Shown here: positions 5,460 to 39,169 of the stretch, in pieces | Layout: every line of letters starts with the position of its first letter | Position numbering within the stretch: the stretch's first letter is position 1 | Origin: Alphaproteobacteria bacterium | GTDB taxonomy: Bacteria; Pseudomonadota; Alphaproteobacteria; Elsterales; Elsteraceae | Length of the DNA: 40,091 bases | Assembly (NCBI GenBank): GCA_004292755.1 | Contig: RDXE01000058.1 | Coordinates: forward strand, 1-40,091 | Direction of reading: 5' to 3' | The notes under the pieces: model-generated | The model's input: only the letters and a program-made list of their open reading frames with translations | Told to the model about the DNA's origin: nothing | Database searches by the model: none | Made by a program: the position numbers and the translations under genes

Positions 5460-7010
5460 TCAGATGCCTGCTGCCTCCTCCACGCCCATGGCCTGCGGGC
5501 GATCCGGTAGCGTGTCAGCCGTGGTGATACCGAGGGAGAGAAACTGCGCCCCGGCGCGCACGGCCTGTCGGCGCAGGTCGGGATCGGTAACACCGCCAAC
5601 ATAGATGATCAGCCGTCGCTGGCGGGCCTCGGCAAGCCCCTCCAGCAGCTTGCGCGGCTCCAAGGACGCGGCCTGCACCAACAGCGCCCCCAGCTTGAGG
5701 TCCATCGCGCGCTTGATACTGGTCAAGGATAGGTCGGCTGTGAACACGGGCTGCAGCCCGGCGCGCTTCAGCATCGCTGCGACCTCGGTCAACGCGGTGT
5801 CGCCAATCTCGCTGATCGGCTGGTGCGCCCAGAACCGCCCGAGTCGACGCATGGGCTCCGGCACCAGAGCCCAGAGGTCGAAGTATGCCTCGCGATCCGC
5901 CCGACGCAGCAGGGTGGGATAGGCAACGGGCAGCAGGAAAAAACACCGCGCCCCAACGGCAAAGCGCGGCATCAAGCTGAAGCAGCCCTGCATCATAACA
6001 TTGATGTCCAGAGCGGCTTGTGCGTTCAGCCTGTCTGCATGGGCCAGCAGGGCAGGCCAGTCCCAGCGATGCTCGCCCCGCTGGCGGGTTGGCACAAACG
6101 CGTGGGTGGACACCACATCCCGCCCGGCCTGCCACCATCGCCGCAGCCGCACCTCCACATCATCGAACTCGGTCGCCTTGCGGCCCATCGCGCTGTAGCG
6201 CGCCAGCAACTCCTCGCGGGTTTGCGTGGGATTGAAGCTCACCTCGTTCTGCGGCTGGTCTGACGTGGTGCCAAAGTCGCCAATCGGCAGCGGTCGGGTG
6301 TCACTGCGCCCCCAGTCCGTTGGGCTCGGCTCCGGCTCTGTGCCGACAGCTTCGGTGTTGACGATCAGCCGCGGCTCCGGCGGCTCCGGGCGATTGGCTG
6401 CCGGGTCGGCGCCAGCCAGACCGGCGGCTAGCCGATGGCGCCACCAGCGCACGGTCTCCTTCGGGGCAAGCCGAATCGGGGGCGCCTCGGCTCCATTCAG
6501 CACCGCAAGCAAGGCCGCAGGGTCGAGATCGAAGGTCGGGATGTCGGTCTCGGTATCACCCAGCAAGAATCGGCGGATGTCTTCAAAGACAGCGGCGCAC
6601 ATGAGGTCGACAGTCTCGACGCTCAAGCCGGGCTGGGTGAACAGCACGATGATGCCATGCTCGCCATGGGCGACGGAGATGTCGTTGCCATTGCTTTCAC
6701 GCCGGACCACGCTTTCGGCCATCAGCTCGATCTTCGGCCAGACGTCGGGCCAGCGCTCTCCGATGACGTCGCGAATCGGCTTCAGGCTGATGTAGCGAGC
6801 AATGCCCTCGGACATTGTGCCGGGGCCATTCATTGCGGCAAGCCGCTCGCGCAGTTCATTGACACGGCGCTGGCGCACGGCTGACCGCTCCGCCATCACC
6901 TCGGCGCGGAGGATGCCGGTGCCGCGTCCTGGTGGCGCGCTGATGCCGGGTACTGGATCGTCCCCGAACAAGGCCTTCAGGCGCTTCATCTGCTCGTCGA
7001 GAAAGCCCAT
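5460..7010 (-). CDS. Unknown protein, possibly a degenerate GGDEF/EAL-like regulator
   Basis: I do not recognise a named family with certainty. The 516-residue soluble protein has an N-terminal charged helix (MGFLDEQMKRLKALFGDD) and a domain at about 65-150 containing SVAHGEHGIIVLF and FEDIRRFLLGD, which reads like a GGDEF remnant without the GGDEF signature. A Pro/Glu-rich linker covers about 205-260. The C-terminal domain (about 280-500) has the rhythm of an EAL barrel, with DTALTEVAAMLKRAGLQPVF then LGALLVQAASL and LIIYVGGVTDPDLRRQAVRAGAQFLSLG, but none of the EAL catalytic acids. The domain reading is inference. It is divergent from the next unknown gene, with 92 bases between the two starts, and its 3' end nearly abuts the PhyH gene (convergent, 5 bases apart). 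Confidence 0.6.
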   Translation of the reverse strand: MGFLDEQMKRLKALFGDDPVPGISAPPGRGTGILRAEVMAERSAVRQRRVNELRERLAAMNGPGTMSEGIARYISLKPIRDVIGERWPDVWPKIELMAESVVRRESNGNDISVAHGEHGIIVLFTQPGLSVETVDLMCAAVFEDIRRFLLGDTETDIPTFDLDPAALLAVLNGAEAPPIRLAPKETVRWWRHRLAAGLAGADPAANRPEPPEPRLIVNTEAVGTEPEPSPTDWGRSDTRPLPIGDFGTTSDQPQNEVSFNPTQTREELLARYSAMGRKATEFDDVEVRLRRWWQAGRDVVSTHAFVPTRQRGEHRWDWPALLAHADRLNAQAALDINVMMQGCFSLMPRFAVGARCFFLLPVAYPTLLRRADREAYFDLWALVPEPMRRLGRFWAHQPISEIGDTALTEVAAMLKRAGLQPVFTADLSLTSIKRAMDLKLGALLVQAASLEPRKLLEGLAEARQRRLIIYVGGVTDPDLRRQAVRAGAQFLSLGITTADTLPDRPQAMGVEEAAGI

Positions 7011-7102
7011 GATGGAGTCCTAGCGAAAGAACCGTGTCCGTTGCTGCCGACCACACTCTGCCATTACACTCGGGTCATCAAAGGCGGGCCGGGCGTCCCA
7101 TC

Positions 7103-8818
7103 ATGGCGCGACAGGACGAGCGTTTCGAGATCCAGGTGTACCTGACTGACCATTGGGTCACCGAAACCTATGCCCGGACGGAGCAAGAGGCGCGGCGATC
7201 CGTCGGCGACTTGTTGACCAACACCGGCTTTGGCGGCGTTCGAATCCTGCGTGAGTACACGGCCCGCAATGGTGCCGACGCTGCGCAGGTCATCTTCACT
7301 CAAATGAAGGAACAGACCAAGGTCGACCGGATTGGCGCGTCGCCGATCGATTCTGCACCGATGTGCCGGTCCTCAGCTGATCTGTTGGGGGCGACCGGGC
7401 GGCAAACCTTTGGCCGGGTGTTGCGAGCTTATTTGGATCGCTTCGTCCTGACTCAAACCGAGGTGCTGTACAATCCCCGCGAGGCGAAGAAGGCGATGGA
7501 GGCTGACGGCCTTGCCATGGCCTGCGTGTCTAAGGTTGCAGCGCTGCAAGCCAAAGAGGCAGGGATAACACCGCAGCAGCGCTCCAACCAAATCTTCGAT
7601 CTGCTGAACGCCGCGCAGGAGCGTGCGCAAGCGGCAGCCTCCCGCCCAGGTCTGCCGACGCTAGAGGCCAATGCCCGCTTTGCGACGGTGCTGGCGAGCC
7701 TGAAGCGGGTGGCCAGCGCCGATGAAGGTGCCTTCCTGGCCATGGTTGTGCTGGCGCGTGACTTGAGTGCGACGCGCAGTTGGCTCGGCAAGTTGGAGCG
7801 GCTGTTGACCTTGATTGAGGGTGAGAGTGACGGCGATGCCGTGCGCTTGATCGATCAAGTGGTGGCCGACGTGCTTGGCTCTGTCGATGGGGTCCGCGAC
7901 CTGTTGGGCCGACAGCAGAATCTGGCCGGTGCGATATTGGCACTGGTCGACCTGCTGGACGGCAAGGTGGAAGCCAAGGGCGAAGACGCGCCCGAGGTGG
8001 CGCGCACCCTGGCCGCGCGGGTCAATGCCCCCGGTCTGGCTGAGACGCGCGCCGCTCTGTTAGAGGCAGCCTGCCGTCAGCTGCGCGGGCGCGGCGATTT
8101 GGTGCGCGGTGAGCGCGACCAGCAGATCCTCGCTTGGAAGCGCATCGGCCAGCGCTTGTTGCGCGCCACCAGCTTTCCTGGCGGGTCGCGGATGGCCGAA
8201 GCCCTGGTGCTGGGATACCTGCGCTTTCAGGAGCAGGGAGGGGACATCGGGCGCAAGGCGGTGATCGGCAACGCGCTGGCCGCGCTGGACTCACCCGCCG
8301 ACCGGGTGCGCATCGCAGCCTTACTGTGTGATACGGAGTTGGGCGATCAGTTCCCCGAGGCGGTTCGAGGCCGCATTGACGATATCCTGTGGCCGGCAAA
8401 GTCCATGAATGACTTGACGCCGGCCAGCCTTGCGCCGCCGGATCGCATGAAACAGGTGGCCGCGGCATGGCGGGCGGTCAAATCTGCCGAGCGGGTGCCG
8501 GATCGGAGCCGCGAGAAGTGGATGGAGATCATGGACCGCCTGCTGGCGGCCTTCATCGACCAAAGCCAGATTGTTGAGCGGTTGGATGATCATGCGGCGT
8601 CGTTGCGCATCCGCGCGACCCGATTGGTGCAGTTCTGCGCATCCGATGCCGTGACCGAGGGCAGGGCAGCCGATGTTGCGCGCCAGCGGGTGATCGGTCA
8701 CCTGCGTCAGCCCAACTTCGACCAGCATTTCGTTGCCGATCTGTCCGGCGATGCAGATCGCGCCAAGGCGTTGCGCGACTTCTACGCTTTGCTGCGCCGC
8801 GCCCGGTTTGAAGCGTAA
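7103..8818 (+). CDS. Conserved-looking helical protein of unknown function
   Basis: A 571-residue protein that I do not recognise. The first 70 residues (FEIQVYLTDHWVTETYARTEQEARRSVGDLLTN) look like a small alpha/beta module; nearly all the rest is amphipathic alpha-helix rich in Ala, Leu, Arg and Asp. No signal peptide, transmembrane segment, cysteine cluster or nucleotide-binding loop is visible. The ATG at 7103 is preferred because the protein-like composition starts there and the 23 residues before it look like noncoding sequence. It is divergent from the 516-residue unknown gene and converges on flgH, with a GC-rich stem-loop between. Position beside flagellar genes makes a motility or cell-cycle role possible, but nothing in the sequence proves it. 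Confidence 0.65.
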   Translation: MARQDERFEIQVYLTDHWVTETYARTEQEARRSVGDLLTNTGFGGVRILREYTARNGADAAQVIFTQMKEQTKVDRIGASPIDSAPMCRSSADLLGATGRQTFGRVLRAYLDRFVLTQTEVLYNPREAKKAMEADGLAMACVSKVAALQAKEAGITPQQRSNQIFDLLNAAQERAQAAASRPGLPTLEANARFATVLASLKRVASADEGAFLAMVVLARDLSATRSWLGKLERLLTLIEGESDGDAVRLIDQVVADVLGSVDGVRDLLGRQQNLAGAILALVDLLDGKVEAKGEDAPEVARTLAARVNAPGLAETRAALLEAACRQLRGRGDLVRGERDQQILAWKRIGQRLLRATSFPGGSRMAEALVLGYLRFQEQGGDIGRKAVIGNALAALDSPADRVRIAALLCDTELGDQFPEAVRGRIDDILWPAKSMNDLTPASLAPPDRMKQVAAAWRAVKSAERVPDRSREKWMEIMDRLLAAFIDQSQIVERLDDHAASLRIRATRLVQFCASDAVTEGRAADVARQRVIGHLRQPNFDQHFVADLSGDADRAKALRDFYALLRRARFEA

Positions 8819-22317: not shown

Positions 22318-24849
22318 TCACTGCGGGGTGGGAGGCGCACCCGGTAGGTCCAACGCCACATCGGCCCCCAGCACGGAGTGGGCCGACAGGCTCAAGGTTC
22401 GGCGCAGCGGCGCACGGGCGAGGGCGCGGGCCTCAGGGGTCAGCTTGCCAGCCTGGAACAGCCAGAACTCTGAGCGTGGATCGAAGTCGCGATTGACTGG
22501 AAAGGCGCTCAAGTCCGGAAACGCAGTTTGGTCGGCGCGCAGGTGCTTCAAAAAGGCACCGGGGTAGCCCAGATCATAGCGGCTGTCGGGTGAGGGCGGA
22601 TTGGCCAGCCAATCGCGGTTCAGTGCCCAAGTTTGCAAGATGCGCTCCCGATCAATCCGCATCGGGTTTGGCGAGCCGCACAGAATCTGGCGGTCGGTGA
22701 TGGTGAAGTAATAGGGAAAGGCCTCGGCGAAGGTGCGCAACTGGCCCATGCGCATTTCCGGGCTGAACCAATGGTCATTCAAGGTGCAGAACACGCCACC
22801 GGGGGCCAGACGCTCGGCAATGGTCTGGAACATCTCGCGGCTGTAAAGATAGCCTGCATAGTTGTGCCAGGGGAAAAACGGCGCTGTCGCGATGATGTCG
22901 TAGCGCTCCTCGCTGCGATTCAAGAACATCCGTCCGTCGGCCATGTGGATCTGGACGCGTGGATCATTGATCGTGGCGTGGATGGTGCTGAACTCCGGGC
23001 GGCTTTGCAGGGCAGGCACCAGCTCCCGGCTGATCTCCACCACATCAATGTGGCGCACCTCCCGATGCAGGGCGAGGGCTGTCAACATCGTGCCATTGCC
23101 GATGCCGATCACCAGCGCGCGCTCCGGCTTGGGATGCAGGCTGACGGCTGTGGACATCATGATGTAATCGTAGCTGTCCACCTCTGGTGCGATGGCGCCA
23201 TGGCGCACATCGTTCAAGTAGATACCTGCCTCCATCCGCCCATCGGGCAGGCGCTTTTCTTCGATGTAGGCAGCTCCTGTAATCCCCTCCACCACAGTGG
23301 TGATGTTCTTGTTCAGTACCCAGCGATAGAGGTTGGAGGGCAGCGCCAACATCAACACCAGCCCTGCGATCGCCGTGCCAGCTGCGATGCCAACCACGCC
23401 CCGGTCCAGGTGCCGATTGTGCGTCGGGTTGCTGTTGCGCAGCGCCAGCCACCAAGCAACGCCGCCGCCGACGATGCCGATTCCAGTCAACAACAGGAAG
23501 GCTGCATAGAGGCCGATGGCGGGCAGAATGGCAAAGCCCATGAGGAATGTGCCGGCCACTGATCCGAAGATGGACACCAGATAGACCCAGCCAATGTCCG
23601 AGCCGGAGTTGCGGTAGCTGGTTAGACACAGGCGCGATACCAGAGGAAAACAGATGCCCTGGATCAGCATCGGCAGCGTGATCAGCAGCAGAAACTTAAC
23701 CGACCAGAGGCCAAGGCCGCCGGTGCGCATGGCAAGGTCGGCGATGCTGCTCCACTGCCACAGGCTGCCAGTTGCACTGCGCTCAGCAATGTCCCGGAAA
23801 ATCGGCACCAATTGGTTGTAGCCCGTGCCATCCGCATCCAGGCCGAGGGAGCGGAACGCAACCAGGCCGAACACGCCAGCCGCGGCAGTCATGAATTGCA
23901 GGGTTGCGAACAGGCCAACCCCCCATCGTGCCGCGAAGGGGGCGATGCGCGCAAACGCCATCGATCCCAAGACAATGCCCAACAGATAAAAGCCCAGCAC
24001 CCAGCCGAACAGACCCGGCATCGCCTCCCACCCCGACAGGGAGGCCAAGCGGTACCACACGAGTTGGTAGCCAAGCGCCAGGAAGGAGGAGATGCCATAG
24101 AGCCACAACAAAGGCCGCGCTGTGTTGGCAGGTAGGGCGGCTGGCGGCGCTGCGTCCACTGCAGCCTTCGCTGCCACGGCAACTGGCGCAACCGATGGCG
24201 CAAAGGAGCGCCAGAGGGCATAAACGCCAATGGCGAGGTTGACCGTGGCCGCCAACATGATCGTTCCGTCGACGGAGAACAGGCTGATCAGCACAAACAC
24301 CGTCAACAGTGCACCCAGCACCGCCCCGAAGGTGTTGGCAGCATAAAAGGCACCAATCGCGCGACCAGTATCCGGCACAGTGCGGTAAAGGTGCTTCACC
24401 ATCACCGGTAAGGTGCCGCCCATCAGCGCAGTGGGCACGAAGGTGACGACGAACACAATTCCGAAACTGGCAAGGAAGTAAAGCCAGGGATTGTCAATCC
24501 ATCCTTGCAGCGCAACGGCTGGCTGGTACAGCAGCGGAATGCCAATCAGGGAAGCGAAGCCGAACAAGCCAACGCCAATCTCCAGAATTGCATAGAGCCG
24601 GAGCGCAGGCACCCGCGCTGAGTCAGCCACCTTACCAAACCAGTGTGCGCCGAGCCCCAGTCCCGCCAGAAACCCGGTGGTGATGGCGCTGATGCAGTAG
24701 AAATCAATGCCGAACAGGGTGACGAACAGGCGTTCCCACACGATCTGATAGGCCAGGGCCGAGAACCCAGACAAGAACACCACGGCCATGAAGGCCCGGG
24801 CTGCTGACCGGCTGGCGTTGGCTGCCAGGGTGTCTGCACGTGTCGTCAT
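22318..24849 (-). CDS. Fused MFS-like transporter/spermidine-synthase-like protein
   Basis: An 843-residue membrane protein. The N-terminal about 500 residues have many membrane helices in the MFS-like arrangement of the fused MFS/spermidine synthase family, starting FMAVVFLSGFSALAYQIVWERLF. The C-terminal part (about 540-760) is a Rossmann methyltransferase-like domain with ALVIGIGNGTMLTALALHREVRHIDVVEIS, then VQIHMADGRMFL and RLAPGGVFC. The usual spermidine-synthase catalytic acid motif (D-x-x-D-P after YDVI) is replaced by YDIIATAPFFPWHNYAGYLY, so polyamine synthesis is unlikely. It lies upstream of sugar genes and on the same strand as the GT39-like gene, 106 bases apart. Function unknown. 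Confidence 0.85.
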   Translation of the reverse strand: MTTRADTLAANASRSAARAFMAVVFLSGFSALAYQIVWERLFVTLFGIDFYCISAITTGFLAGLGLGAHWFGKVADSARVPALRLYAILEIGVGLFGFASLIGIPLLYQPAVALQGWIDNPWLYFLASFGIVFVVTFVPTALMGGTLPVMVKHLYRTVPDTGRAIGAFYAANTFGAVLGALLTVFVLISLFSVDGTIMLAATVNLAIGVYALWRSFAPSVAPVAVAAKAAVDAAPPAALPANTARPLLWLYGISSFLALGYQLVWYRLASLSGWEAMPGLFGWVLGFYLLGIVLGSMAFARIAPFAARWGVGLFATLQFMTAAAGVFGLVAFRSLGLDADGTGYNQLVPIFRDIAERSATGSLWQWSSIADLAMRTGGLGLWSVKFLLLITLPMLIQGICFPLVSRLCLTSYRNSGSDIGWVYLVSIFGSVAGTFLMGFAILPAIGLYAAFLLLTGIGIVGGGVAWWLALRNSNPTHNRHLDRGVVGIAAGTAIAGLVLMLALPSNLYRWVLNKNITTVVEGITGAAYIEEKRLPDGRMEAGIYLNDVRHGAIAPEVDSYDYIMMSTAVSLHPKPERALVIGIGNGTMLTALALHREVRHIDVVEISRELVPALQSRPEFSTIHATINDPRVQIHMADGRMFLNRSEERYDIIATAPFFPWHNYAGYLYSREMFQTIAERLAPGGVFCTLNDHWFSPEMRMGQLRTFAEAFPYYFTITDRQILCGSPNPMRIDRERILQTWALNRDWLANPPSPDSRYDLGYPGAFLKHLRADQTAFPDLSAFPVNRDFDPRSEFWLFQAGKLTPEARALARAPLRRTLSLSAHSVLGADVALDLPGAPPTPQ

Positions 24850-24955
24850 TGATGGTTTCCCGCCCCCCCAAATGAAACCGACAAGATCGGTCTCGTCATT
24901 CCGTTCGTCTTGGCGCCTGACCCAGTCGGGATCATCCCAGCCCCCTGAAAGGAGG

Positions 24956-26554
24956 TCAGGGCTGCTGGCGCTGATACATACGCACCCCGTCGATCTGGGT
25001 CAGTAGTCGGTAGGACTGCCATTCCACAGAAAATCTGGGGTCTCTGCGGAAATAGTCCAGATAGTCAAAGGCCACGCCGCGAAAGGCCCCTTCGCGCGCC
25101 GCATCCTGCACCACGACCAGAGCTGGTCGATGGCGCACGATGTCTGCGGCGATGGACCGAAACAGCAGGTTCTCCGCGTGGCCCATCGCTTCAGGTGACC
25201 GGTAGTTGGCTCGCTGGCTGCCGTCGCCAGGCCCAGCATAGAGTGCCGGCAGCAGCCACAGGCTCATCCAACGCATTGCGGAGGTGGCTCCGGCATGGTT
25301 CAGCACGGGGTACTGCGGATGGATCGAACTGGACAGCCACAGCACCGTGCGCCCACCCGCCCGCTCGGTCACCACGGCCGCAAGGCGGCCTGTGACACTG
25401 TCGGCATAGCGGACCTGGGCGGCGAATGGTGGCGCTAAGGCACCCGACAAGAACCAAACCAGCGCGGCTACGGCTGCCACCGCGGAGGCGACGGGCGCAC
25501 TCGCACCGGTCCCGACCCGGCGCCGGTCAATCATGGCATCGATCAGCGCGCCCAGCGCGAGGCCAGCCAGAATCACCACGGCCCCGCGGGCGGCGACGAA
25601 GTGGTAGTCCCAGCCCTTCGCTTGAAAGAAGCCCGCCAAGGTAAGCGCCACAGCCCAGACCAACAACGGCTGCGCAAGCGCTGATGGCACGCTGCGTGTC
25701 AGCACCGAGAACCCGATGATCGCAATCGTCAGCGGCAGGACCTGATCGCCCATCAACAGCGCCGGAATGACGGCGAGCGAAAAGCTTTGGTAGTGGTCCT
25801 GCACCAGCGGTACGACGAACCCCATGTACTCGGGCATCGCGATCAGCACCGCGAACAGATAGGCCGCCAGCGCGGTGAGGATGGTCAGCGGCACCCGGTG
25901 CAGCAGCGAGGTGAAGCCGAGGCGGGCCATCGCCAGCCCCTCCATCATCACCGGCACCAGCAGAAAGTATGGCTTCAGCGCGATCCCAATCGCCGCGAGC
26001 ATTGCCACGGTGATGTCCAGCACCATCGCAGGCTGCGCAGTGGCGCCTGCCAACCGCGTCATGGTCAACACCAGATAGGGCAGGGTGAGGATCAGCAACA
26101 GATGCTCACGCTGACCAAAGCTGTGCGCTGGCAGCACGTTCAGGGCAAACAGCGCCATGGAGGCGATCAGGAGCTGAGTGACTGGTCCCAGTTGGGCCAT
26201 CAATGGCTGAGCCAGCCGGATGGTCAACGCCACCGATGCAACGGTCAGCGCCAGCACCGTCGCCACGAAGCTTTGCGGCGTTGGAATCGACAGCGCATCG
26301 GCCAGCAGCACAGCCGGGATGTTCAGCCAGAACACCATCGGCGGGTTAACGTCGATCAAATCGGTGTACAGCGTCTCGCCTGCCAGCATGCGCCGTGTGA
26401 AGGCCAGCAGTGCCCCAACATCATGGTTGAGCGGTGGCCAGAACTGACCCAGGCCCCACAGTGCAGGAACTGCCAACAGCGCAATCACCAGCGGCCTTGG
26501 TACGGCAAGGCCAGCACTGTGGAGCGCGGGACGAGAGGCACTGGAGGCGGGCAC
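24956..26554 (-). CDS. GT39/ArnT-like membrane glycosyltransferase
   Basis: A 532-residue polytopic protein (about ten or more membrane helices) of the GT39/PMT/ArnT type, which transfers sugars from polyprenyl-phosphate donors on the periplasmic side. The first external loop has the acidic motif NHDVGALLAFTRRMLAGETLYTDLIDVNPPMVFWLNIP, with the acid after the first helix and the conserved N-P-P-M. The soluble C-terminus (about 470-530) is short. It is divergent from the cupin gene 26774 and near the GT2 that would make its donor. The acceptor (lipid A, protein or polysaccharide) is unknown. It also resembles hypothetical dolichyl-phosphate-mannose mannosyltransferases. Confidence 0.75.
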   Translation of the reverse strand: MPASSASRPALHSAGLAVPRPLVIALLAVPALWGLGQFWPPLNHDVGALLAFTRRMLAGETLYTDLIDVNPPMVFWLNIPAVLLADALSIPTPQSFVATVLALTVASVALTIRLAQPLMAQLGPVTQLLIASMALFALNVLPAHSFGQREHLLLILTLPYLVLTMTRLAGATAQPAMVLDITVAMLAAIGIALKPYFLLVPVMMEGLAMARLGFTSLLHRVPLTILTALAAYLFAVLIAMPEYMGFVVPLVQDHYQSFSLAVIPALLMGDQVLPLTIAIIGFSVLTRSVPSALAQPLLVWAVALTLAGFFQAKGWDYHFVAARGAVVILAGLALGALIDAMIDRRRVGTGASAPVASAVAAVAALVWFLSGALAPPFAAQVRYADSVTGRLAAVVTERAGGRTVLWLSSSIHPQYPVLNHAGATSAMRWMSLWLLPALYAGPGDGSQRANYRSPEAMGHAENLLFRSIAADIVRHRPALVVVQDAAREGAFRGVAFDYLDYFRRDPRFSVEWQSYRLLTQIDGVRMYQRQQP

Positions 26555-26705
26555 GGATCAACAAATCCTTCTGGATGCAACGGCGCAGAAGGTAGCGGTC
26601 TGTGCTCAGCCGACCAATTCCGAACGCATGAGCAGGAGATTACAAATTCTTAAGTCGGCGCAATGCCAGCCTCTCCGTCAGGTAACGTGGTTGTCAGGCG
26701 AGATT

Positions 26706-26715
26706 GTGCTAGCAC
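26706..26715. repeat. 10-bp palindrome in the divergent sugar promoter region
   Basis: GTGCTAGCAC is a perfect palindrome midway between the divergent starts of the GT39-like and the ketoisomerase genes. It could be an operator; no consensus of a named regulator was recognised. Confidence 0.35.
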
Positions 26716-26773
26716 CATCGGCAAGCGCGGCGACGAACTGCCGCGGAGTTGACCAGGACAGGAGGTCCTGACC

Positions 26774-27256
26774 ATGGCCGTTCCCACTGCCTACCCGCCT
26801 CTGGGGTCATCCCCCTTGTCGTCGCTGGAGGATGTTCGGGTCCTGAGCTTTCCCCTGCGGGAAGCAGCCGGGCGCCGCTTGGTCGCCATCGAGGGGCCAG
26901 GGCCAGACTACCCCCTACCCATTGCGCGGGTGTTCACCGTCAGCGCGATGGAGGCAGGCATTGTTGGTGGGCGCCACGCGCACCGGCGCTGTTCGCAGTT
27001 CCTGGTCGCCGTCCATGGCCGGGTGGAAGTCACCGCGCTGGCTGATCCAGAGCGTCCTGATGCCGTGTGCCGGGTGTTGCTGGACAGCCCCAACCTGGGC
27101 GTGCTGCTGCCGCCGGGCATCTGGGGGGAACAGCATTATCTCGACCCTGATGCGGTGCTGATGGTGCTGTGCGACCGACCCTACGAGGCCGCCGATTACA
27201 TCCGCGATTTCGAGGAGTTTCGCGCCTACCGCTCCTCGGCTTCGATGGTGGCCTGA
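26774..27256 (+). CDS. FdtA/WxcM-type sugar 3,4-ketoisomerase (cupin)
   Basis: Small beta-helix cupin related to FdtA, QdtA and Tyl1a, which convert dTDP-4-keto-6-deoxyglucose to the 3-keto isomer. The active-site line is VGGRHAHRRCSQFLVAVHGRVEV with catalytic histidines H68 and H70, and the family end VLMVLCDRPYEAADYIRDFEEFRAYR is complete. At 160 residues it is about 20 longer than FdtA, the excess lying at the N-terminus. AGGAGG lies upstream of the ATG. It starts a unit with the methyltransferase and GT2. Whether the product is the gluco or galacto isomer cannot be told here. Confidence 0.88.
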   Translation: MAVPTAYPPLGSSPLSSLEDVRVLSFPLREAAGRRLVAIEGPGPDYPLPIARVFTVSAMEAGIVGGRHAHRRCSQFLVAVHGRVEVTALADPERPDAVCRVLLDSPNLGVLLPPGIWGEQHYLDPDAVLMVLCDRPYEAADYIRDFEEFRAYRSSASMVA

Positions 27257-27261
27257 CCCCG

Positions 27262-28005
27262 ATGGACGCGCGCGAATACGAGAAGATGGCGGCCGTTGAG
27301 GCCCAGATGTGGTGGTACCAAGGCTTGCATCAGATGGTGCTGACGCTGATCGACGGCCTGTCGCTTCGCCCTGGGGCGCGGGTGTTGGATGCCGGCTGCG
27401 GCACTGGGGGTCTGCTGGCCCGGATTGCCGAGCGTCGGCCCGACCTGCGGCTCACCGGCTTTGATTTTGACGACGCCGCGGTCGCGTGGTCGCGTCGCAA
27501 AGCTGCGATTCCCCTGGTGGCAGCGTCGATCAACGCACTGCCATTTGCATCCGGGCAGTTTGAGGCTGTGGTATCGTGCGATGTGCTGTGCCACCGCTCT
27601 GTCGATCAGGCGGCTGCTTTGGCCGACATCGCGCGGGTGCTGGCACCAGGTGGCCATGTCATTTTGAACCTGCCCGCCTATGACTGGATGTATTCAACCC
27701 ATGACCGCCGGGTGCACACGGCACGGCGCTACACGGTGGGTCGGGCCCGGCAGTCGCTGGCGGAGCATGGCTTGCGGGTCAGTCGTGGCGGCTATTGGAA
27801 CACGGGGCTGTTTCCGCTGATGGCGGTTCACCGCCTGTTGAGCCGGTCCAGCAGCGGCGATAGCGACGTTCACCTTTACCCCGCGCCGATTGAGGCGTTG
27901 TTCCGCCGGGTTGTGCTGACCGAGGCGTGGCTGGTGGGCAAGGGGGTGAATCTGCCCTACGGTGGCTCGGTTCTGGTCGTGGCGGAGAAGGTAGGGCATG
28001 TCTGA
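27262..28005 (+). CDS. SAM-dependent methyltransferase (class I)
   Basis: A 247-residue class I methyltransferase. Motif I is VLDAGCGTGG (residues 41-50), followed by LTGFDFDDAAVAW and a post-motif line FEAVVSCDVLCHRSVD, then VLAPGGHVILNLPAYDWMYSTHDRRVHTARRYT. The opening EYEKMAAVEAQMWWYQGLHQ and the D-x-R-V-H-x-x-R-R-Y line are typical of methyltransferases found in surface-glycan clusters. It begins five bases after the ketoisomerase and overlaps the GT2 gene by eight bases, so it should act in the same pathway. Possible targets are an amino group of the sugar or the lipid-linked product; neither is shown. ATG at 27262 is chosen for spacing and N-terminal fit. Confidence 0.85.
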   Translation: MDAREYEKMAAVEAQMWWYQGLHQMVLTLIDGLSLRPGARVLDAGCGTGGLLARIAERRPDLRLTGFDFDDAAVAWSRRKAAIPLVAASINALPFASGQFEAVVSCDVLCHRSVDQAAALADIARVLAPGGHVILNLPAYDWMYSTHDRRVHTARRYTVGRARQSLAEHGLRVSRGGYWNTGLFPLMAVHRLLSRSSSGDSDVHLYPAPIEALFRRVVLTEAWLVGKGVNLPYGGSVLVVAEKVGHV

Positions 28006-28969
28006 TTACGCGCTGTCGGTGGTGATCCCAGTCTACAACGGTGCGCGCACCATCGGGCGAGTGGTTGAGGCCTTGGCCTCCCTGCCCATCGCCAACCAGA
28101 TGGAAGTGGTGCTGACCTATGACGGCAGCCCCGATGACAGCCTTGCGGTCTGCCTCGCCCTTGCGGAGGAGGGCAAGCTGCCGATTACGGTTGTCGAGCA
28201 CGCCCGCAACTACGGCGAGCACAATGCCGTGATGAGCGGCCTGCGCCACGCCCGTGGCGCCTATATCGTCACCATGGATGATGACCTGCAAAACCCACCG
28301 GAAGAGGTGCAGCGCCTGTTTGAGCATGCACGCGACGGCGGCTATGACGTCGTCTATTCCTACTACGAGACCAAGGAGCATGAGAGCTGGCGCAACCTCG
28401 GCTCCCGCCTGACCAACTGGGTGGCGGGGGTGCTGATGGACAAGCCGAAAGGTCTCTATCTCTCCAGCTTCCGATGCATGAGCGCCTTTGTGGCGCGCGA
28501 GATCACCCGCAACACCGGCCCGTTTCCCTATGTCGACGGTTTGATTTTGCAGGTGACGCAGCGCATCGGCACGTTGAAGGTGCGCCATCTGCCGCGGGCG
28601 GAGGGGCAGTCCAACTATACACTCGCGCGCCTGTTCCGGCTGTTCATGTCAATGGCGCTCAACTTCTCCGCCATCCCGTTGCGCGCGGCCACTCTCCTCG
28701 GTCTTGCGATGGGGGCGGTTGGCTTCCTGGCTCTGATCATCGTGCTGATCGAGGTTCTATTCGGCACGCCGCCCACCGGCTGGGCCTCCACCATCGCGAT
28801 TCTGTTGGTGGTGGCTGGTGTCCAGCTCCTGATGCTGGGCGTGATTGGCGAGTATCTTGGCCGGTTGTTCCTCACCATCAACCAGCGTCCGCAATCCACC
28901 GTTCGTCACGTTGTCCGCGGTCGCCTGGCCCGTGATGATCGCACGCTGCGCGAAACCGACGCGGTGTAG
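27998..28969 (+). CDS. Polyprenyl-phosphate glycosyltransferase (GT2, GtrB/ArnC-like)
   Basis: A 323-residue GT2 enzyme. The GT-A domain has LSVVIPVYNGARTIGRVVE, VLTYDGSPDDSL, NYGEHNAVMSGLRHARG and the metal motif VTMDDDLQNPPEEV (residues 94-96 DDD). It ends with two membrane helices (about 230-295, LLGLAMGAVGFLALIIVLIEVLF and TIAILLVVAGVQLLMLGVIGEYLGRLFL). This is the design of GtrB, DPM1 and ArnC, which load a sugar onto undecaprenyl or other polyprenyl phosphate at the cytoplasmic face. It is translationally coupled to the methyltransferase. It would supply a GT39-like enzyme after flipping. Confidence 0.88.
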   Translation: MSDYALSVVIPVYNGARTIGRVVEALASLPIANQMEVVLTYDGSPDDSLAVCLALAEEGKLPITVVEHARNYGEHNAVMSGLRHARGAYIVTMDDDLQNPPEEVQRLFEHARDGGYDVVYSYYETKEHESWRNLGSRLTNWVAGVLMDKPKGLYLSSFRCMSAFVAREITRNTGPFPYVDGLILQVTQRIGTLKVRHLPRAEGQSNYTLARLFRLFMSMALNFSAIPLRAATLLGLAMGAVGFLALIIVLIEVLFGTPPTGWASTIAILLVVAGVQLLMLGVIGEYLGRLFLTINQRPQSTVRHVVRGRLARDDRTLRETDAV

Positions 28970-28993
28970 GGGGCAGGCACACCATCATCGCAC

Positions 28994-29034
28994 AAAAAAG
29001 CCCGCCGACACTGGGTCCCCAGCGTCGGCGGGCT
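28994..29034 (-). terminator. Rho-independent terminator of the DegT gene
   Basis: On the minus strand an 11-bp perfect stem (arms 28999-29009 and 29024-29034), with a further CTGG/CCAG pairing inside, is followed by six T residues. It lies 18 bases past the aminotransferase stop. The stem would also form on the plus strand but without a U-tract, so the GT2 transcript may be stopped only partly. Confidence 0.88.
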
Positions 29035-29052
29035 CGGCAGCTGCGTGAGGGC

Positions 29053-30243
29053 TTACTCGGCGGCCAAGGCCATGCGGTAGAAGCCGCGGATGCCGTCGAT
29101 TACGCGGTCGACATCCTGATCCGACAGTTCGGGGTACATCGGCAGGCTGAGGATGTCGTGGACGATCCGCTCCGTCACGGGTAGGGAGCAGGGGAATCGG
29201 TCGCGATAGGCCGGTTGCACGTGGACCGGTTCGGCATAGTGCAAGCCCGCATGGATGCCGCGGCTGGCGAGGTGGGCGCGCAATGCCTCCCGCTCTGGCG
29301 AGCGCAGCACATACAGGTGGTAGACATGGGCACAACCGGGCGCGTCACCCGGCAGGACCAGCGGCAGATCGGCCAAGGCCTGGGTGTAACGTCGGGCAAT
29401 CTCCCGCCGGCGGGCGGTTGTGGCATCCAGATGGCGCAGCTTCACGCGCAGAATGGCGGCCTGCAACTCATCTAGACGGCTGTTCCAGCCCGGCATCTCG
29501 GCATGCTGCGGACGCACCCAGCCATATTGGCGCAGTTGGCGCAAGCGATCAGCCAGTGCTGGGTCAGCCGTGATGACGATCCCACCATCCCCGATCCCGC
29601 CAAGATTCTTGGTTGGGTAGAGGCTGAAGCAGCCGACCACGCCAACCGAGCCAACCTTATGACCATTCCAGAGCGCACCATGGGCCTGGGCACAATCTTC
29701 GATCAGGTGCAGACTGTGACGGGTCGCAAGATCCAACAGTGGCCCAAGGTCGACCGGGTGACCATACAGATGCACGGCGACAATCGCCCGGGTGCGGGGC
29801 GAAATCGCCCGCGCCACACTTTCCGGGTCAAGGCCATAACGCTCGGCATCGATGTCGGCAAACACCGGCGTCGCCCCAGCCATTTCGATCGCCGCAACAG
29901 TCGCCACTGCGGTGTGTGCAGTGGTGATCACCTCATCCCCCGCCCCGATGTTGAGCGCGCGCAGGGCCAGATGAATGGCGTCGGTGCCATTGGCGACACC
30001 AATGCCATGTTGGCTGCCGCACCACGCCGCAAACTCGGCCTCAAATGCCTTCACCTCTGGACCAAGAATGTACACCTGCCCCTCCAGCACACGCTGGATG
30101 GCAGCGTCGATCTCAGTCTTGAAGGCCTGATACTGGGCGGCAGGGCGCGCAAAGTACAAGGGCTCCAGCGCGGTCTGGGCCTCCAGCTTCGGTTGAATGT
30201 CGACCGGCTGAGTGCGCACGAGCTTCAGGTCCGAGGTGGTCAC
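29053..30243 (-). CDS. DegT/DnrJ/EryC1/StrS-family sugar aminotransferase (FdtB-like)
   Basis: PLP-dependent sugar aminotransferase of 396 residues. Signature parts are GVANGTDAIHLALRALNIG (85-100), the PLP-ring acid in LIEDCAQAHGA (D183), and the Schiff-base lysine K212 in SLYPTKNLGGIGDGG. This last motif is typical of the 3-amino-3,6-dideoxyhexose branch (FdtB, QdtB, TylB). The GTG start at 30243 follows GGGGAGA. About 20 N-terminal residues are extra. It lies on the opposite strand from the ketoisomerase but only about 1.8 kb away, and together they would give a dTDP-3-amino sugar. A promoter between 30244 and 30433 is expected but no clear one was recognised. Confidence 0.9.
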   Translation of the reverse strand: MTTSDLKLVRTQPVDIQPKLEAQTALEPLYFARPAAQYQAFKTEIDAAIQRVLEGQVYILGPEVKAFEAEFAAWCGSQHGIGVANGTDAIHLALRALNIGAGDEVITTAHTAVATVAAIEMAGATPVFADIDAERYGLDPESVARAISPRTRAIVAVHLYGHPVDLGPLLDLATRHSLHLIEDCAQAHGALWNGHKVGSVGVVGCFSLYPTKNLGGIGDGGIVITADPALADRLRQLRQYGWVRPQHAEMPGWNSRLDELQAAILRVKLRHLDATTARRREIARRYTQALADLPLVLPGDAPGCAHVYHLYVLRSPEREALRAHLASRGIHAGLHYAEPVHVQPAYRDRFPCSLPVTERIVHDILSLPMYPELSDQDVDRVIDGIRGFYRMALAAE

Positions 30244-30413
30244 GATTGTCTCCCCACTGCACCGAACGGTCGAGGTTCCTGCCTGGACCGGCTGGCGGCG
30301 GGGCGCGTCATCTGGGCCTCCGTCACCGGCTAGGCCATACGATGGCGAGCAGCACCTGACCCGGTAAGTTAAACTTTGGCAATCTCAAGACCCAGTGGAT
30401 GATTTTTTTCAGC

Positions 30414-30428
30414 GGGGCTGCTAGCCCC
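30414..30428 (+). promoter_or_regulatory. Hairpin abutting the ribosome site of the first DMT gene
   Basis: GGGGCT and AGCCCC form a perfect 6-bp stem with a GCT loop. It ends immediately before AGGG, the only ribosome site of the ATG at 30434, and follows a run of seven T residues. It could limit ribosome access. Confidence 0.4.
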
Positions 30429-30433
30429 AGGGC

Positions 30434-30781
30434 ATGGTTCAACTGACCGATCTGCCGCTCTACCTGCTGTACTCGCTCGCGGGCACCAGCTCAGCCGGAT
30501 TGGCGAAAGCCGCAATCGCGCGCGCGCAAGCCCGGCAATGGTTGCCAGCCCTAGTGCGGGCGGGCGGTGGCGGAGGGGCTCTGCTTGCCAGCTTTGGGTT
30601 GTTGTATGTGTTGCTGCAAGACAGCGATCTGTCGGTAATGGTGCCGGTGGCAGTTGCCTCCAACATCGCAATGGCGGCACTGATCGCGCGCCTCGTGTTT
30701 CGCGAACGGCTGAGCCGGCAGAAGCTGGTTGGTATGGCGGTGATTGCAGCCGGGGTGATTGCCATCGGGTTGTCTGGGTGA
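30434..30781 (+). CDS. Small four-helix DMT protein, ArnE/EamA-like
   Basis: A 115-residue hydrophobic protein with about four membrane helices (segments at 7-22, 42-61, 68-87 and 96-114), ending in FRERLSRQKLVGMAVIAAGVIAIGLSG, the signature end of EamA/DMT half-transporters. It overlaps the next small gene by four bases (GTGA). A pair of such half-transporters in one operon matches ArnE/ArnF, which flip undecaprenyl-phosphate aminoarabinose. The substrate here is not known; proximity to a GT2 and a DegT gene suggests a lipid-linked amino sugar. Confidence 0.72.
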   Translation: MVQLTDLPLYLLYSLAGTSSAGLAKAAIARAQARQWLPALVRAGGGGGALLASFGLLYVLLQDSDLSVMVPVAVASNIAMAALIARLVFRERLSRQKLVGMAVIAAGVIAIGLSG

Positions 30782-31134
30782 TCGACGCAGCGCTCTATCT
30801 GGTCAGCGCGGCGTTGACCGCCATTGGCCTGACCCAAATCAAGCTGGCCGCCGCAGCAGGCGTGTTGGCACGGTTTGAGGTCTGGTCCTGGGCAGTGCTG
30901 GGCGGATGGTTCGCTGTCTATCTGGCGGGAATGGCGCTGTGGCTGGCGGCGATTGCCCGCAATCCCTTGTCCACCGCCTATCCCATTGGCATTGGCCTGT
31001 CGCTTGCCTCTGCCACCATCGCGGCATGGTGGTGGCTGGGGGAGGGGATCGGACCGCTGCGCCTTGCTGGCATTGCGCTGGTCTTGATTGGCGGGGTGCT
31101 TGTTGCCCGTGCCAGTGCAGGAGACGGGCACTAA
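30778..31134 (+). CDS. Second small four-helix DMT protein, ArnF-like
   Basis: A 118-residue partner of the preceding gene, starting with GTG inside its stop (GTGA). About four membrane helices can be seen: AALYLVSAALTAIGLTQIKLAAA, WAVLGGWFAVYLAGMALWLAAIARN, LSTAYPIGIGLSLASATIAAWWW and LRLAGIALVLIGGVLVARAS. The line LSTAYPIGIGLSLASATIAAWWWLGE is characteristic of SMR/EamA proteins (central glycine/proline region followed by W-x-x-x-E). Together with the upstream gene it forms a heterodimer-type transporter. The frame is shown by this similarity; longer frames that include it have no supporting start. Confidence 0.72.
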   Translation: MIDAALYLVSAALTAIGLTQIKLAAAAGVLARFEVWSWAVLGGWFAVYLAGMALWLAAIARNPLSTAYPIGIGLSLASATIAAWWWLGEGIGPLRLAGIALVLIGGVLVARASAGDGH

Positions 31135-35641: not shown

Positions 35642-35684
35642 GAGACTGGCTTCTCGCCTTGCCCAAGTCGTGACATGGTCCGCT

Positions 35685-35694
35685 CGGCATGCCG
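35685..35694. repeat. 10-bp palindrome upstream of the RTX gene
   Basis: CGGCATGCCG is a perfect palindrome about 32 bases before the RTX gene start. It may be an operator. No -35/-10 pair was recognised around it. Confidence 0.3.
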
Positions 35695-35725
35695 TATTGG
35701 CGGTTGTAGAAATTGGGGTTTTGAG

Positions 35726-38700
35726 ATGATGGCGAAGCTGATGCGCACCGTGGTCGTGATCGATAGCCATGTGGCTGATCGGGCGGGGCTGCTGGCTGGA
35801 CTGTCGCGTGGAACCCCAATCGCCGTTGTCCTGCCCACGGAACCGGCGATTCCAGCCGTCCGCGCGATTCTGGCCAACCAGTCTGCTGTTGACCGTCTGG
35901 TGATCATTGCCCACGGCGCGCCAGGTGTTGTCCGGCTGGGCACAGGGCTAGATGCGTCCACAGCGTTGGATCACGGCCATGCCTTGGCGCAGTGGCGGTC
36001 ACACTTGGCGCCGGGCGCCACCATCCAGATTCTAGCCTGTGAAGCCGGTGCAGGGGACGAGGGGCAACGTCTGGTCACGCTGCTGGCCGCCTTGACTGGT
36101 GTTCCGGTGGCTGCGGCCAGTCGGGTGCTGGATGGCCAGCAACCCCAGGACTGGGAGCTTGACGTTGGCACACCGGGTGCTGACCTCGCGTCCAGGATCA
36201 CCCCGCGGGATTGGGCGCATCAATTGAGCTGGAGTCCTGGGCCCTCAAGCACACCGGGCAATGATGTTTTCACCGGCTCGGTGAACGCCGACAATGCCAG
36301 CGGTGGTGCTGGAAATGACTTGCTGAACGGCAATGATGGCAATGACTGGCTGGCCGGTGATAGCGGTCAGGACACTGTGGTCGGCGGGATTGGTGATGAT
36401 ACAATCCGCTTTAACTCGGTAGCTGACATCACTGCGGGTGAGTCCGCCGATGGAGGTGCCGGTCTAGATCGGCTTGAGCTTACCGGTTCGGGACTTTACG
36501 ATTTCTGGGCAAACTCGGTTTCATTAACTGGGATCGAGACTTTGTTTGTCGTCGGTGCAGATAGCACAGTGACTGGAGGCTTGGCGTTTTTCGGTGGTTT
36601 GTCAAATGTCACCGGTAGCACCGGAACTCAAGCTTTAATATTTAGTACCGCTGGCAGCTTTGACTGGAGTTCTATTTCGATCAGCAGCATCGAGTCGTTT
36701 CAGTTTTCAGCGGGTACCAGTCTTCGGCTCCCCGTATCCTATAGTAGTGCGGTCACAGTTTCTGGGTCGACGAGCGCGGACTCCGTTGTTGGTGGAGCGG
36801 GCGCGGATAGTTTGTGGGGTAACAACGGCAACGACACCTTGGTCGGCGGTGCTGGCAACAATACTCTATTGGGTGGTAACGGTGCCGACAGTTTGGTCGG
36901 CGGCACCGGTAATGACGTGGCGCAAGTGTTCTCTGGTGAGTCTTTGATCGGTGACGTGTTTGATGGTGGGGCGGGCGACGATACTCTTGAGCAAATCACA
37001 ACCGGCGCGCTGTCCATCACAAACCTATCCTTGGTAAGCGTGGAACGCCTTCAAGCCCACCCCTCGGGTGGCATGACGTTGACGCTGACCTCGGCGCAAG
37101 CAGCTGGTGTTTCCACAATCCAAGGTGGAACCGGTGCTGATTGGCTCGTCATTTCAGATGGTGGTGCCGACTTTACCGGAAAGACGTTAACATCGATTGA
37201 ACAGATCCAAACGTCGGCAGGCACAGGTGTCGCGATCACCCTGCCGACCAGTTACGCAACACCAATCACGGTGTTGGGGGCCAATGGCAATGATACCTTG
37301 ATCGGCAGCGTTGGCAATAATTGGCTGCTTGGGATATTCGGCAGTGATTCTTTGTCAGGTGGTGATGGTGCAGACACCATCGATGGCGGTGAAAACAACG
37401 ACACCATGACTGGTGGTGCCGGTGCTGATATTTTCTTTGCTGGCAACGTTGTCGATTTTAATGGTGATGTGATCACCGATTTCTCAATCGACGATGTTAT
37501 CGATAGCTCTGCCACATTTTTCAATTCTGTTGTTGCAGGCGACGGTACTGCAATGAGCATAAACTCGGTCGAAGTGAAACACGACGGTAGCAATACTCTT
37601 GTCTATATCAATGACTCGATTGGCGCTACTGCTGATGCAATCATCACGCTGACTGGCACCATTCCGCTGGGTGAGTTTTCGATCAGCGGCGGGAACCTCG
37701 CACGTGCGGCCCCGGTTGTTCCGGCCGCGATCACTGGGTCATCGCTGGCACTGGCTGGCAGTTACGGCAGCGTCTCCACTGTCTCGTTGAGCGGGACGGG
37801 GGTTGCAACGGTTACCCAGAACAGCGCGTCGGTCATCCCGACAGGCGGAGCCAACATTGGCATCACGACTGTCTCTGCCGCGGCCATGACTGGTGCGTTT
37901 GGCGTGCTGATCCAGGGTTACTCAAACCACGAATCGCTGGTTGGCAGCGGCGCGTCAGACTCGATTGATGGTGCCAGCGGCAACGACACACTGCTGGGTG
38001 GCGATGGTGGGGACAGCCTGCGTGGCGGCTTGGGTGTTGATTCCGTGCTGGGCCAAGCGGGCAACGATACCATCGGTGTCCAGTTGGGTGACACGGCTTC
38101 CAGCGAGGTTTGGGACGGCGGTGCTAACACCGACACGCTGTTGCTGATGGGCTCAGGTACCTACGATTTCACAACATCGACGTTAACGTCGTTGGAAGTT
38201 TTGGCAGGCACCAGCGGCAATGACACTGTGTACTTGGCGAATACCCAGATGAGTCAGTTCACCAATATTGATCTGGGAGGTGGCACGGACATTCTTGTAC
38301 TACACGGCATAACCGGCCCTGCTGATCTATCCAGCGTGGCGTTTGCAAACGTGGAGTATGTACGGCTGAACCCAGCGGCAGGCATCTTGATCACCGACAG
38401 CCCCTCCGTTGCTGTCGAAATCGACGCCAGCAACATACTGGCCCACACAGTTGCCGGGTCCGTCGCGGATGATTTGATCTTTGGCGGTGGGGGTGGTGAT
38501 GCGATCACCGGTGGCGATGGTGCTGACACCATTGATGGAGGTAACGGTGCCGATGTGCTGACGGGTGGAGCCGGAGTGGATTTGATCTTCGGCGGCATCG
38601 GAGACGACACGATCAATGGCAGCGGTCAATCCGACAGTATCGTCGCTGGCGCTGGCAATGACAGCATCACCCACTACGGCGCTGGAGAAGTGATTTTCGC

Positions 38701-39169
38701 GGGTGAGGGGGCAGATATCGTCACTATCGGCACGCAAGGTTCCGTTGGTGTTTTGATTGTCGGCGACGCTCTGTTAAGCGATGTCTTCAATGATATGTTG
38801 GTGGGCGGTGGCGGTGCTGATACCATGTTCGGCTGCGGCGGCAACGACACCATAAACGGATATGTCGGCGCCGATATGCTGTTGGGCAATGATGGCGACG
38901 ACACCATCAACGGCGGCGCCGGAGACGACACAATGTGGGGTGGCGCAGGCAATGACTGGTTTGTGCTGTCGACCGACGACGGCTCCACCGACGTGATTGC
39001 TGACTTCACCGTCGGACAGGATAAGCTGGCGATATCCTTTGGCGACTTCGCAAGCACTCAACTCTTGGTCGTGAATGGTGGGTTGCAAGTGACCGTGGGC
39101 AGCACAGTGATGTTGCTTGCCGGGGTCACCAGCCTGTCTGCGACGGACTTCCTGTTCAGTGGTGCCTAA
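35726..39169 (+). CDS. DUF4347 protein with RTX calcium-binding repeats
   Basis: An 1147-residue probable secreted protein. Residues about 8-165 form a DUF4347 domain (VVVIDSHVADRAGLLAGL, LVIIAHGAPGVVRLG, ATIQILACEAGAGDEG). The rest alternates beta-rich spacers with at least six blocks of nonapeptide repeats of the G-G-x-G-x-D-x-U-x type, beginning GGAGNDLLNGNDGNDWLAG and ending GGAGDDTMWGGAGNDWF. These bind calcium and fold outside the cell. The C-terminus (DVIADFTVGQDKLAISFGDF, then LSATDFLFSGA) looks like a type I secretion signal; no N-terminal signal peptide is present. No T1SS genes lie in the window. Two in-frame ATGs (35726, 35729) compete. The middle third is clearly less GC-rich than its flanks. 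A surface adhesin or S-layer role is inferred. Confidence 0.85.
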   Translation: MMAKLMRTVVVIDSHVADRAGLLAGLSRGTPIAVVLPTEPAIPAVRAILANQSAVDRLVIIAHGAPGVVRLGTGLDASTALDHGHALAQWRSHLAPGATIQILACEAGAGDEGQRLVTLLAALTGVPVAAASRVLDGQQPQDWELDVGTPGADLASRITPRDWAHQLSWSPGPSSTPGNDVFTGSVNADNASGGAGNDLLNGNDGNDWLAGDSGQDTVVGGIGDDTIRFNSVADITAGESADGGAGLDRLELTGSGLYDFWANSVSLTGIETLFVVGADSTVTGGLAFFGGLSNVTGSTGTQALIFSTAGSFDWSSISISSIESFQFSAGTSLRLPVSYSSAVTVSGSTSADSVVGGAGADSLWGNNGNDTLVGGAGNNTLLGGNGADSLVGGTGNDVAQVFSGESLIGDVFDGGAGDDTLEQITTGALSITNLSLVSVERLQAHPSGGMTLTLTSAQAAGVSTIQGGTGADWLVISDGGADFTGKTLTSIEQIQTSAGTGVAITLPTSYATPITVLGANGNDTLIGSVGNNWLLGIFGSDSLSGGDGADTIDGGENNDTMTGGAGADIFFAGNVVDFNGDVITDFSIDDVIDSSATFFNSVVAGDGTAMSINSVEVKHDGSNTLVYINDSIGATADAIITLTGTIPLGEFSISGGNLARAAPVVPAAITGSSLALAGSYGSVSTVSLSGTGVATVTQNSASVIPTGGANIGITTVSAAAMTGAFGVLIQGYSNHESLVGSGASDSIDGASGNDTLLGGDGGDSLRGGLGVDSVLGQAGNDTIGVQLGDTASSEVWDGGANTDTLLLMGSGTYDFTTSTLTSLEVLAGTSGNDTVYLANTQMSQFTNIDLGGGTDILVLHGITGPADLSSVAFANVEYVRLNPAAGILITDSPSVAVEIDASNILAHTVAGSVADDLIFGGGGGDAITGGDGADTIDGGNGADVLTGGAGVDLIFGGIGDDTINGSGQSDSIVAGAGNDSITHYGAGEVIFAGEGADIVTIGTQGSVGVLIVGDALLSDVFNDMLVGGGGADTMFGCGGNDTINGYVGADMLLGNDGDDTINGGAGDDTMWGGAGNDWFVLSTDDGSTDVIADFTVGQDKLAISFGDFASTQLLVVNGGLQVTVGSTVMLLAGVTSLSATDFLFSGA

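Follow-up and report, generated by a model that had tools for sequence, protein, structure and literature searches.

A 40,091-nucleotide stretch of an alphaproteobacterial genome (Elsterales, Elsteraceae; assembly GCA_004292755.1, contig RDXE01000058.1, positions 1 to 40,091; hereafter the window) carries, at 24956-31134, a 6.2-kb cluster of seven genes that probably forms a self-contained, three-component periplasmic glycosylation module with its own sugar supply, similar in logic to the Arn (aminoarabinose) pathway. The genes encode a GT-C fold glycosyltransferase, an FdtA-type ketoisomerase, a methyltransferase, a GT2 family glycosyltransferase, a DegT family aminotransferase, and two small membrane proteins of drug/metabolite transporter type (DMT1 and DMT2). 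Judged from sequence, the sugar is probably a methylated 3-amino-3,6-dideoxyhexose, and the acceptor is most likely an outer-membrane glycan or lipid such as lipopolysaccharide (LPS). The observations that carry this reading are the gene content, the predicted fold of the GT-C protein, conservation, and co-occurrence. In the assembly, which totals 4.2 Mb, the window makes up contig C74, and its order is represented by nine genomes in our collection.

Recurrence and content of the gene set

Clustering of these genes exceeds chance, as both their neighborhood and their co-occurrence recur in about 17 alphaproteobacterial families. We surveyed 289 alphaproteobacterial genomes for GT2 (E ≤ 1e-70), DegT (E ≤ 1e-90), and the methyltransferase subfamily (E ≤ 1.5e-85; next best match, 3e-59); ORF (open reading frame) calling was unreliable at some high-GC loci. 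GT2 was present in 24 genomes from about 17 families. Of these, 23 also had the partner methyltransferase, which was absent from the other 265; DegT was found in all 24 versus 5 of 265 (Fisher test, about 4e-33 and about 2e-30, respectively, uncorrected for relatedness), and FdtA in 9 versus 15 of 265 (p 2e-5). The methyltransferase gene lay directly upstream of GT2 in 23 of the 24 genomes (G007 being the exception) and is the most tightly conserved GT2 partner, which bears out the first-pass annotation of this DNA in singling it out.

Outside the window's order, 20 GT2 loci were compared. Every one had the methyltransferase adjacent, 16 had a gene for one small SMR/EamA protein immediately after GT2, 12 had a GT-C gene, either of the same family or of an alternative one (a member of which matches PMT_2), and 9 had DegT within 2.5 kb. 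The usual neighborhood there consists of GT-C, methyltransferase, GT2, one ArnE-like protein, and aminotransferase, with the GT-C homologue located upstream of the methyltransferase-GT2 pair in several families; a paired flippase is a feature of the window's order. Within the order, FdtA, GT2, DegT, and DMT2 were each found in eight of the nine genomes, and the ninth (G006) had no orthologue of any of the four. The module genes stand all together in the window's own genus, whereas Elstera-like genomes divide them between locus A (GT-C, FdtA, methyltransferase, and GT2) and locus B (DegT with DMT1 and DMT2, next to pyrC). Scattering of the genes in relatives had been named as a result that would refute the idea of one module. 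It occurs only in part, as this division into two loci, but the genes are co-retained and distant families have them joined.

Relatives of the methyltransferase-GT2-DegT set were also found in genomes of Verrucomicrobia, Planctomycetes, Nitrospinota, Gammaproteobacteria, and Bacteroidetes. In two other lineages (L020 and L206) the set is accompanied by a nucleoside diphosphate (NDP)-hexose 2,3-dehydratase, which is again a route to 3-amino sugars. Xanthomonad GT2 matches (L034-L041) were considered as orthologous modules and rejected, having no FdtA, DegT, or methyltransferase of the window's type near GT2. Three of these loci (L034, L039, and L041) have a conserved gene of about 230 codons before the GT2 homologue, epimerase-like in L034, where GT2 is followed by a 727-aa protein without a Pfam match; they apparently belong to a different three-component system.

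The 532-aa GT-C protein matched no model in Pfam or NCBIfam, its profile matched no PDB sequence, and fold comparison alone succeeded. Its AlphaFold (AF2) model has a GT-C fold (predicted local distance difference test score [pLDDT], 78.6; predicted template modeling score, 0.79). VIA-align 2 placed ArnT (5f15) at the top, with a Z score of 18.0 over 443 residues, followed by ALG12, PMT, and OST chains, and Foldseek returned AftA, ArnT, and PglB. The residues N43-H44-D45, which follow the first transmembrane helix, D68, and P72 are invariant across six homologues. Thus, the earlier label "GT39/ArnT-like" holds at the level of fold and not at that of a family model. Based on this predicted structure, we propose that the protein moves a lipid-linked sugar onto a periplasmic acceptor.

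GT2 matches the ArnC model and its best PDB structures, ArnC 9hwj and sll0501, over its full length, and its sequence identifies it as a predicted polyprenyl-phosphate glycosyltransferase of the GtrB/ArnC/DPM type. Its best NCBIfam model is ArnC, at 160 bits against a cut-off of 529. DMT1 has a weak EamA match under the gathering score, and the best NCBIfam models for DMT2 are ArnE (20.7 bits) and ArnF (20.1 bits), with cut-offs of 92 and 99. The DMT pair stands beside DegT in relatives. Outside the order, all five small proteins that were scanned also matched ArnE or ArnF best, and the ArnE-like protein directly 3' of GT2 provides what we regard as the strongest support for a putative flippase; the window's DMT pair would be equivalent in role to this single gene. 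The cluster therefore contains the genetic elements of a three-component system, namely, a GT2 of the GtrB/ArnC/DPM type, a small membrane flippase, and a GT-C protein.

The remaining genes suggest how the sugar may be supplied. FdtA exceeds the PF05523 cut-off of 23 bits by a wide margin, matches solved FdtA and QdtA enzymes in the PDB (4zu4, 4mzu, and 2pa7), is present as a single copy in its genome, and keeps the HAH motif, as it does throughout the order. In phmmer ranking against the PDB, DegT is closest to 7b0d, followed by DesV (2oga) and QdtB (3frk), all above ArnB (1mdo), and it is likewise closer to these three than to PseC. DesV and QdtB are C3 aminating enzymes. The pairing of FdtA with a 3-amino-type aminotransferase, proposed from the sequence at first pass, is thus upheld. 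RmlB (dTDP-glucose 4,6-dehydratase) is encoded on another contig, C27 (478 bits against a cut-off of 365). No FdtC/QdtC N-acetyltransferase was present among the window genes scanned, in agreement with the first-pass annotation; the remainder of the genome was not searched for one.

FdtA also adjoins DegT away from GT2 in four genomes (G073, G074, G192, and G285), and in three of these (G073, G192, and G285, all of one family) the pair is preceded by an EamA protein with 10 transmembrane helices. At L211, L212, and L213, stand-alone FdtA-DegT pairs lie behind a full-length EamA transporter in one family, whose methyltransferase-GT2 pair is elsewhere.

Arrangement and surroundings of the cluster

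Genes of the putative glycosylation module, in window coordinates.
Product	Position	Strand	Basis
GT-C fold glycosyltransferase, 532 aa	24956..26554	-	predicted fold; no Pfam/NCBIfam family
FdtA-type sugar 3,4-ketoisomerase, 160 aa, divergent clade	26774..27256	+	PF05523, 103 bits
Class I S-adenosylmethionine (SAM) methyltransferase, 247 aa	27262..28005	+	PF13649/PF08241 (Methyltransf_25/11)
ArnC/GtrB-like GT2 with C-terminal membrane helices	27998..28969	+	PF00535
DegT-family sugar 3-aminotransferase, 396 aa	29053..30243	-	PF01041, 395 bits
DMT1, SMR/EamA-type four-helix protein, putative flippase subunit	30434..30781	+	weak EamA
DMT2, SMR/EamA-type four-helix protein, putative flippase subunit	30778..31134	+	weak NCBIfam ArnE/ArnF

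All of the genes named in the first-pass annotation are present, and the Pfam, PDB, and fold assignments support the proposed module. FdtA, the methyltransferase, and GT2 run on the same strand, with a 5-bp gap after the first and an overlap after the second, and the DMT1 stop overlaps the GTG start of DMT2 by 4 bp (GTGA). Homologues set the methyltransferase start, which was therefore placed as listed rather than at the longer ORF from 27169.

On one side, the cluster is bordered by ribA and a fusion of major facilitator superfamily (MFS) and spermidine-synthase-like domains; on the other side lie pyrC and an amidase gene. The fusion protein (843 aa, 22318-24849, minus strand; NF037959 at 113.7 bits) falls within the coordinates given at first pass. 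It is probably not part of the module, because it is adjacent only in the window's own genus and in one Burkholderiales metagenome-assembled genome (L027). In the latter, a 30% identical protein stands divergently beside the methyltransferase-GT2 pair, in the slot usually occupied by GT-C. In Elstera-like genomes locus A lies near flgH/flgA/flgFG, and in some of them locus B lies near flgN, flgK, and flgL; at two Elstera-like loci (L158, 10487-16247, and L160, 1087-6606) DegT is followed by an FlgN-like gene, then by flgK and flgL, and by a GNAT-domain protein whose tail is long and of low complexity. Elsewhere in the window, two long ORFs without a Pfam match (516 aa, minus strand, and 594 aa, plus strand) lie by flagellar genes at 5460-8818, and a 1,164-aa protein encoded at 35675-39169 on the plus strand contains DUF4347 as well as 12 stretches that match RTX calcium-binding sequences.

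Proposed pathway, sugar, and acceptor

From these observations we infer a pathway of five steps, a sugar, and an acceptor. RmlB would make dTDP-4-keto-6-deoxyglucose, FdtA would move the keto group to C3, and DegT would aminate C3 to give dTDP-3-amino-3,6-dideoxyhexose. The methyltransferase may then act at N3 or O4, either on the nucleotide sugar or after lipid transfer; its near-obligate pairing with GT2 fits a GT2 that handles the methylated form. By homology, GT2 would load the sugar on polyprenyl phosphate at the cytoplasmic face and the DMT1/DMT2 pair would flip the lipid-linked sugar. By fold, GT-C would pass the sugar to the acceptor. Because GT-C uses a flipped donor, that acceptor should be periplasmic, and LPS or another glycolipid is likelier than flagellin. 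The first-pass annotation had already proposed one module with this Arn-like logic of lipid-linked sugar, DMT flippase, and GT-C transfer, and the recurrent neighborhood and co-occurrence speak for it. Its core inference was largely right, and its interpretation overall is partly supported.

The methyltransferase is proposed from its sequence to methylate the amino sugar, and the position of the methyl group leaves room for a variant of this explanation. Its AF2 model (pLDDT, 93.2) has TleD, RebM, and AtmM as nearest folds, and the N-methyltransferase DesVI (3bxo), considered in a comparison with DesVI/TylM1, appears far down the profile matches and in the Rossmann core only. There is close to an even chance that the enzyme is an O-methyltransferase acting on O4 and not an N-methyltransferase as for mycaminose. 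If the chemistry is shared, the 2,3-dehydratase at L020 and L206 would yield a 2-deoxy sugar without O2, leaving N3 or O4 as the target. In addition, L032 has, along with the methyltransferase, a fusion of FdtA and a hexapeptide acyltransferase, so that N3 would be blocked there, and RebM and AtmM are sugar O-methyltransferases, with TM scores of only about 0.6. However, L032 is Verrucomicrobial and only distantly related, many antibiotics contain N-methylated 3-amino sugars, and likeness among class I methyltransferase folds is poorly informative about the target. We lean slightly toward O4 over N3.

Several observations weigh against the proposed pathway and sugar. FdtA of this order has neither the arginine of DxRG nor that of RGxHAH, both present in canonical members, and it stands beside GT2 only within this order. 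It is absent from 15 of the 24 GT2-bearing genomes, several of which have a short-chain dehydrogenase/reductase (SDR) next to DegT instead; the sugar may therefore vary. The methyltransferase resembles known enzymes in its Rossmann core only, and the survey thresholds were picked after earlier matches had been seen. The three-component system might use another sugar, with FdtA being a lineage-specific neighbor whose product is not the substrate, an alternative that we consider unlikely. Both the FdtA-free genomes and the divergent FdtA of the order would fit it, as would the one SDR tested, whose best PDB match was UDP-glucose 4-epimerase. Against this, FdtA, the methyltransferase, and GT2 of the order form a tight operon whose members are jointly present or absent, a C3-type DegT is found in every GT2-bearing genome, and FdtA is enriched among these genomes.

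Two further alternatives concern the acceptor and the identity of the pathway. The module could decorate flagellin or another flagellar part, as the first-pass annotation had considered, and in the window's order the GT2 half does lie near flgH/A/G/F, fliL, and fliM and the DegT half near flgN/K/L. We judge this very unlikely, in that the GT-C donor is a lipid-linked sugar flipped to the periplasmic side, whereas flagellin leaves via its own export channel, and homologues of the window's FlgA, FlgH, and FlgF/G were not found at GT2 loci outside the order, so that the flagellar synteny is confined to it. Still more improbable is that the cluster is the aminoarabinose pathway itself, even though the best NCBIfam models are ArnC for GT2, ArnB for DegT, and ArnE for DMT2 and the GT-C fold is nearest to ArnT. 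The equivalog cut-offs are missed widely, by ArnC and ArnE/F as given above and by ArnB at 258 bits against 631, and DegT resembles DesV and QdtB more closely than it does ArnB. ArnA and ArnD are not in the cluster, although no whole-genome search for them was made.

The glycosylation module with a methylated 3-amino sugar thus remains our preferred explanation. We put forward more tentatively the wider proposal that it represents a widespread, previously undescribed alphaproteobacterial decoration system, related to systems in other phyla, whose sugar is always a methylated 3-amino sugar and whose acceptor is an outer-membrane glycolipid that has so far not been known to bear this sugar. The methyltransferase is as conserved as GT2, and under this wider proposal the methyl group would therefore be required, perhaps because it is recognized by the flippase or GT-C. 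When lipid A or LPS bears amino sugars, classically through the Arn pathway, the charge of the cell surface and its resistance to cationic peptides are altered. An unrecognized surface modification is predicted across about 17 alphaproteobacterial families and could be searched for directly by mass spectrometry. Furthermore, the seven defined genes offer a test bed for what methylation contributes and for how a single SMR flippase compares in role with a pair.

Comparison with known systems

The Arn pathway, which places L-Ara4N (4-amino-4-deoxy-L-arabinose) on lipid A, shares with the module an aminotransferase, a polyprenyl-phosphate GT2, a small SMR flippase, and a GT-C enzyme, and the window's GT-C fold is closest to ArnT and its small proteins to ArnE/F. 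The module differs in having a 3-amino-type aminotransferase and FdtA in place of the UDP-Ara4N route, and it adds a dedicated methyltransferase. FdtA/FdtB and QdtA/QdtB, which serve S-layer and O-antigen glycans, share the FdtA domain and an aminotransferase of the DesV/QdtB type. In contrast to those pathways, the module has a divergent FdtA clade and a methyltransferase instead of an FdtC/QdtC acetyltransferase in the cluster.

Gtr-type and Citrobacter pentofuranose systems likewise consist of a polyprenyl-phosphate sugar synthase, an ArnE/EmrE-like four-helix flippase, and a GT-C enzyme (PMC11127046), and SMR lipid flippases provided a further comparison (PMC9574504). The sugar of the former systems is glucose (Glc), galactose (Gal), or a pentofuranose, whereas that of the module would be an amino sugar, and the module travels with sugar-supply genes and a near-obligate methyltransferase. 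In Xanthomonas campestris, wxc region 3 (WxcK, WxcM, and WxcN) is associated with N-acetylfucosamine (FucNAc) branches of the O-antigen, and in the part of the account drawn on here both wxcK, for dTDP-FucNAc synthesis, and wxcN, encoding a small membrane protein, are required for the LPS sugar branches (PMC4878081). To that extent, wxcK and wxcN set a precedent for amino-sugar LPS branches that need a sugar-synthesis gene together with a small membrane protein. The same part of that source differs from our case in that the sugar is N-acetylated, no methyltransferase is described, and the cluster lies within the O-antigen locus (PMC4878081).

In the open literature we found nothing usable on N-methyl-3-amino-3,6-dideoxyhexose in LPS or on FdtA/QdtA product specificity, and no usable description of a GT2-EamA-methyltransferase module. 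As far as we have found, what is new relative to these systems is that three-component glycosylation is combined with a methyltransferase that is almost obligate and with a supply of 3-amino sugar, together with the breadth of distribution of this combination.

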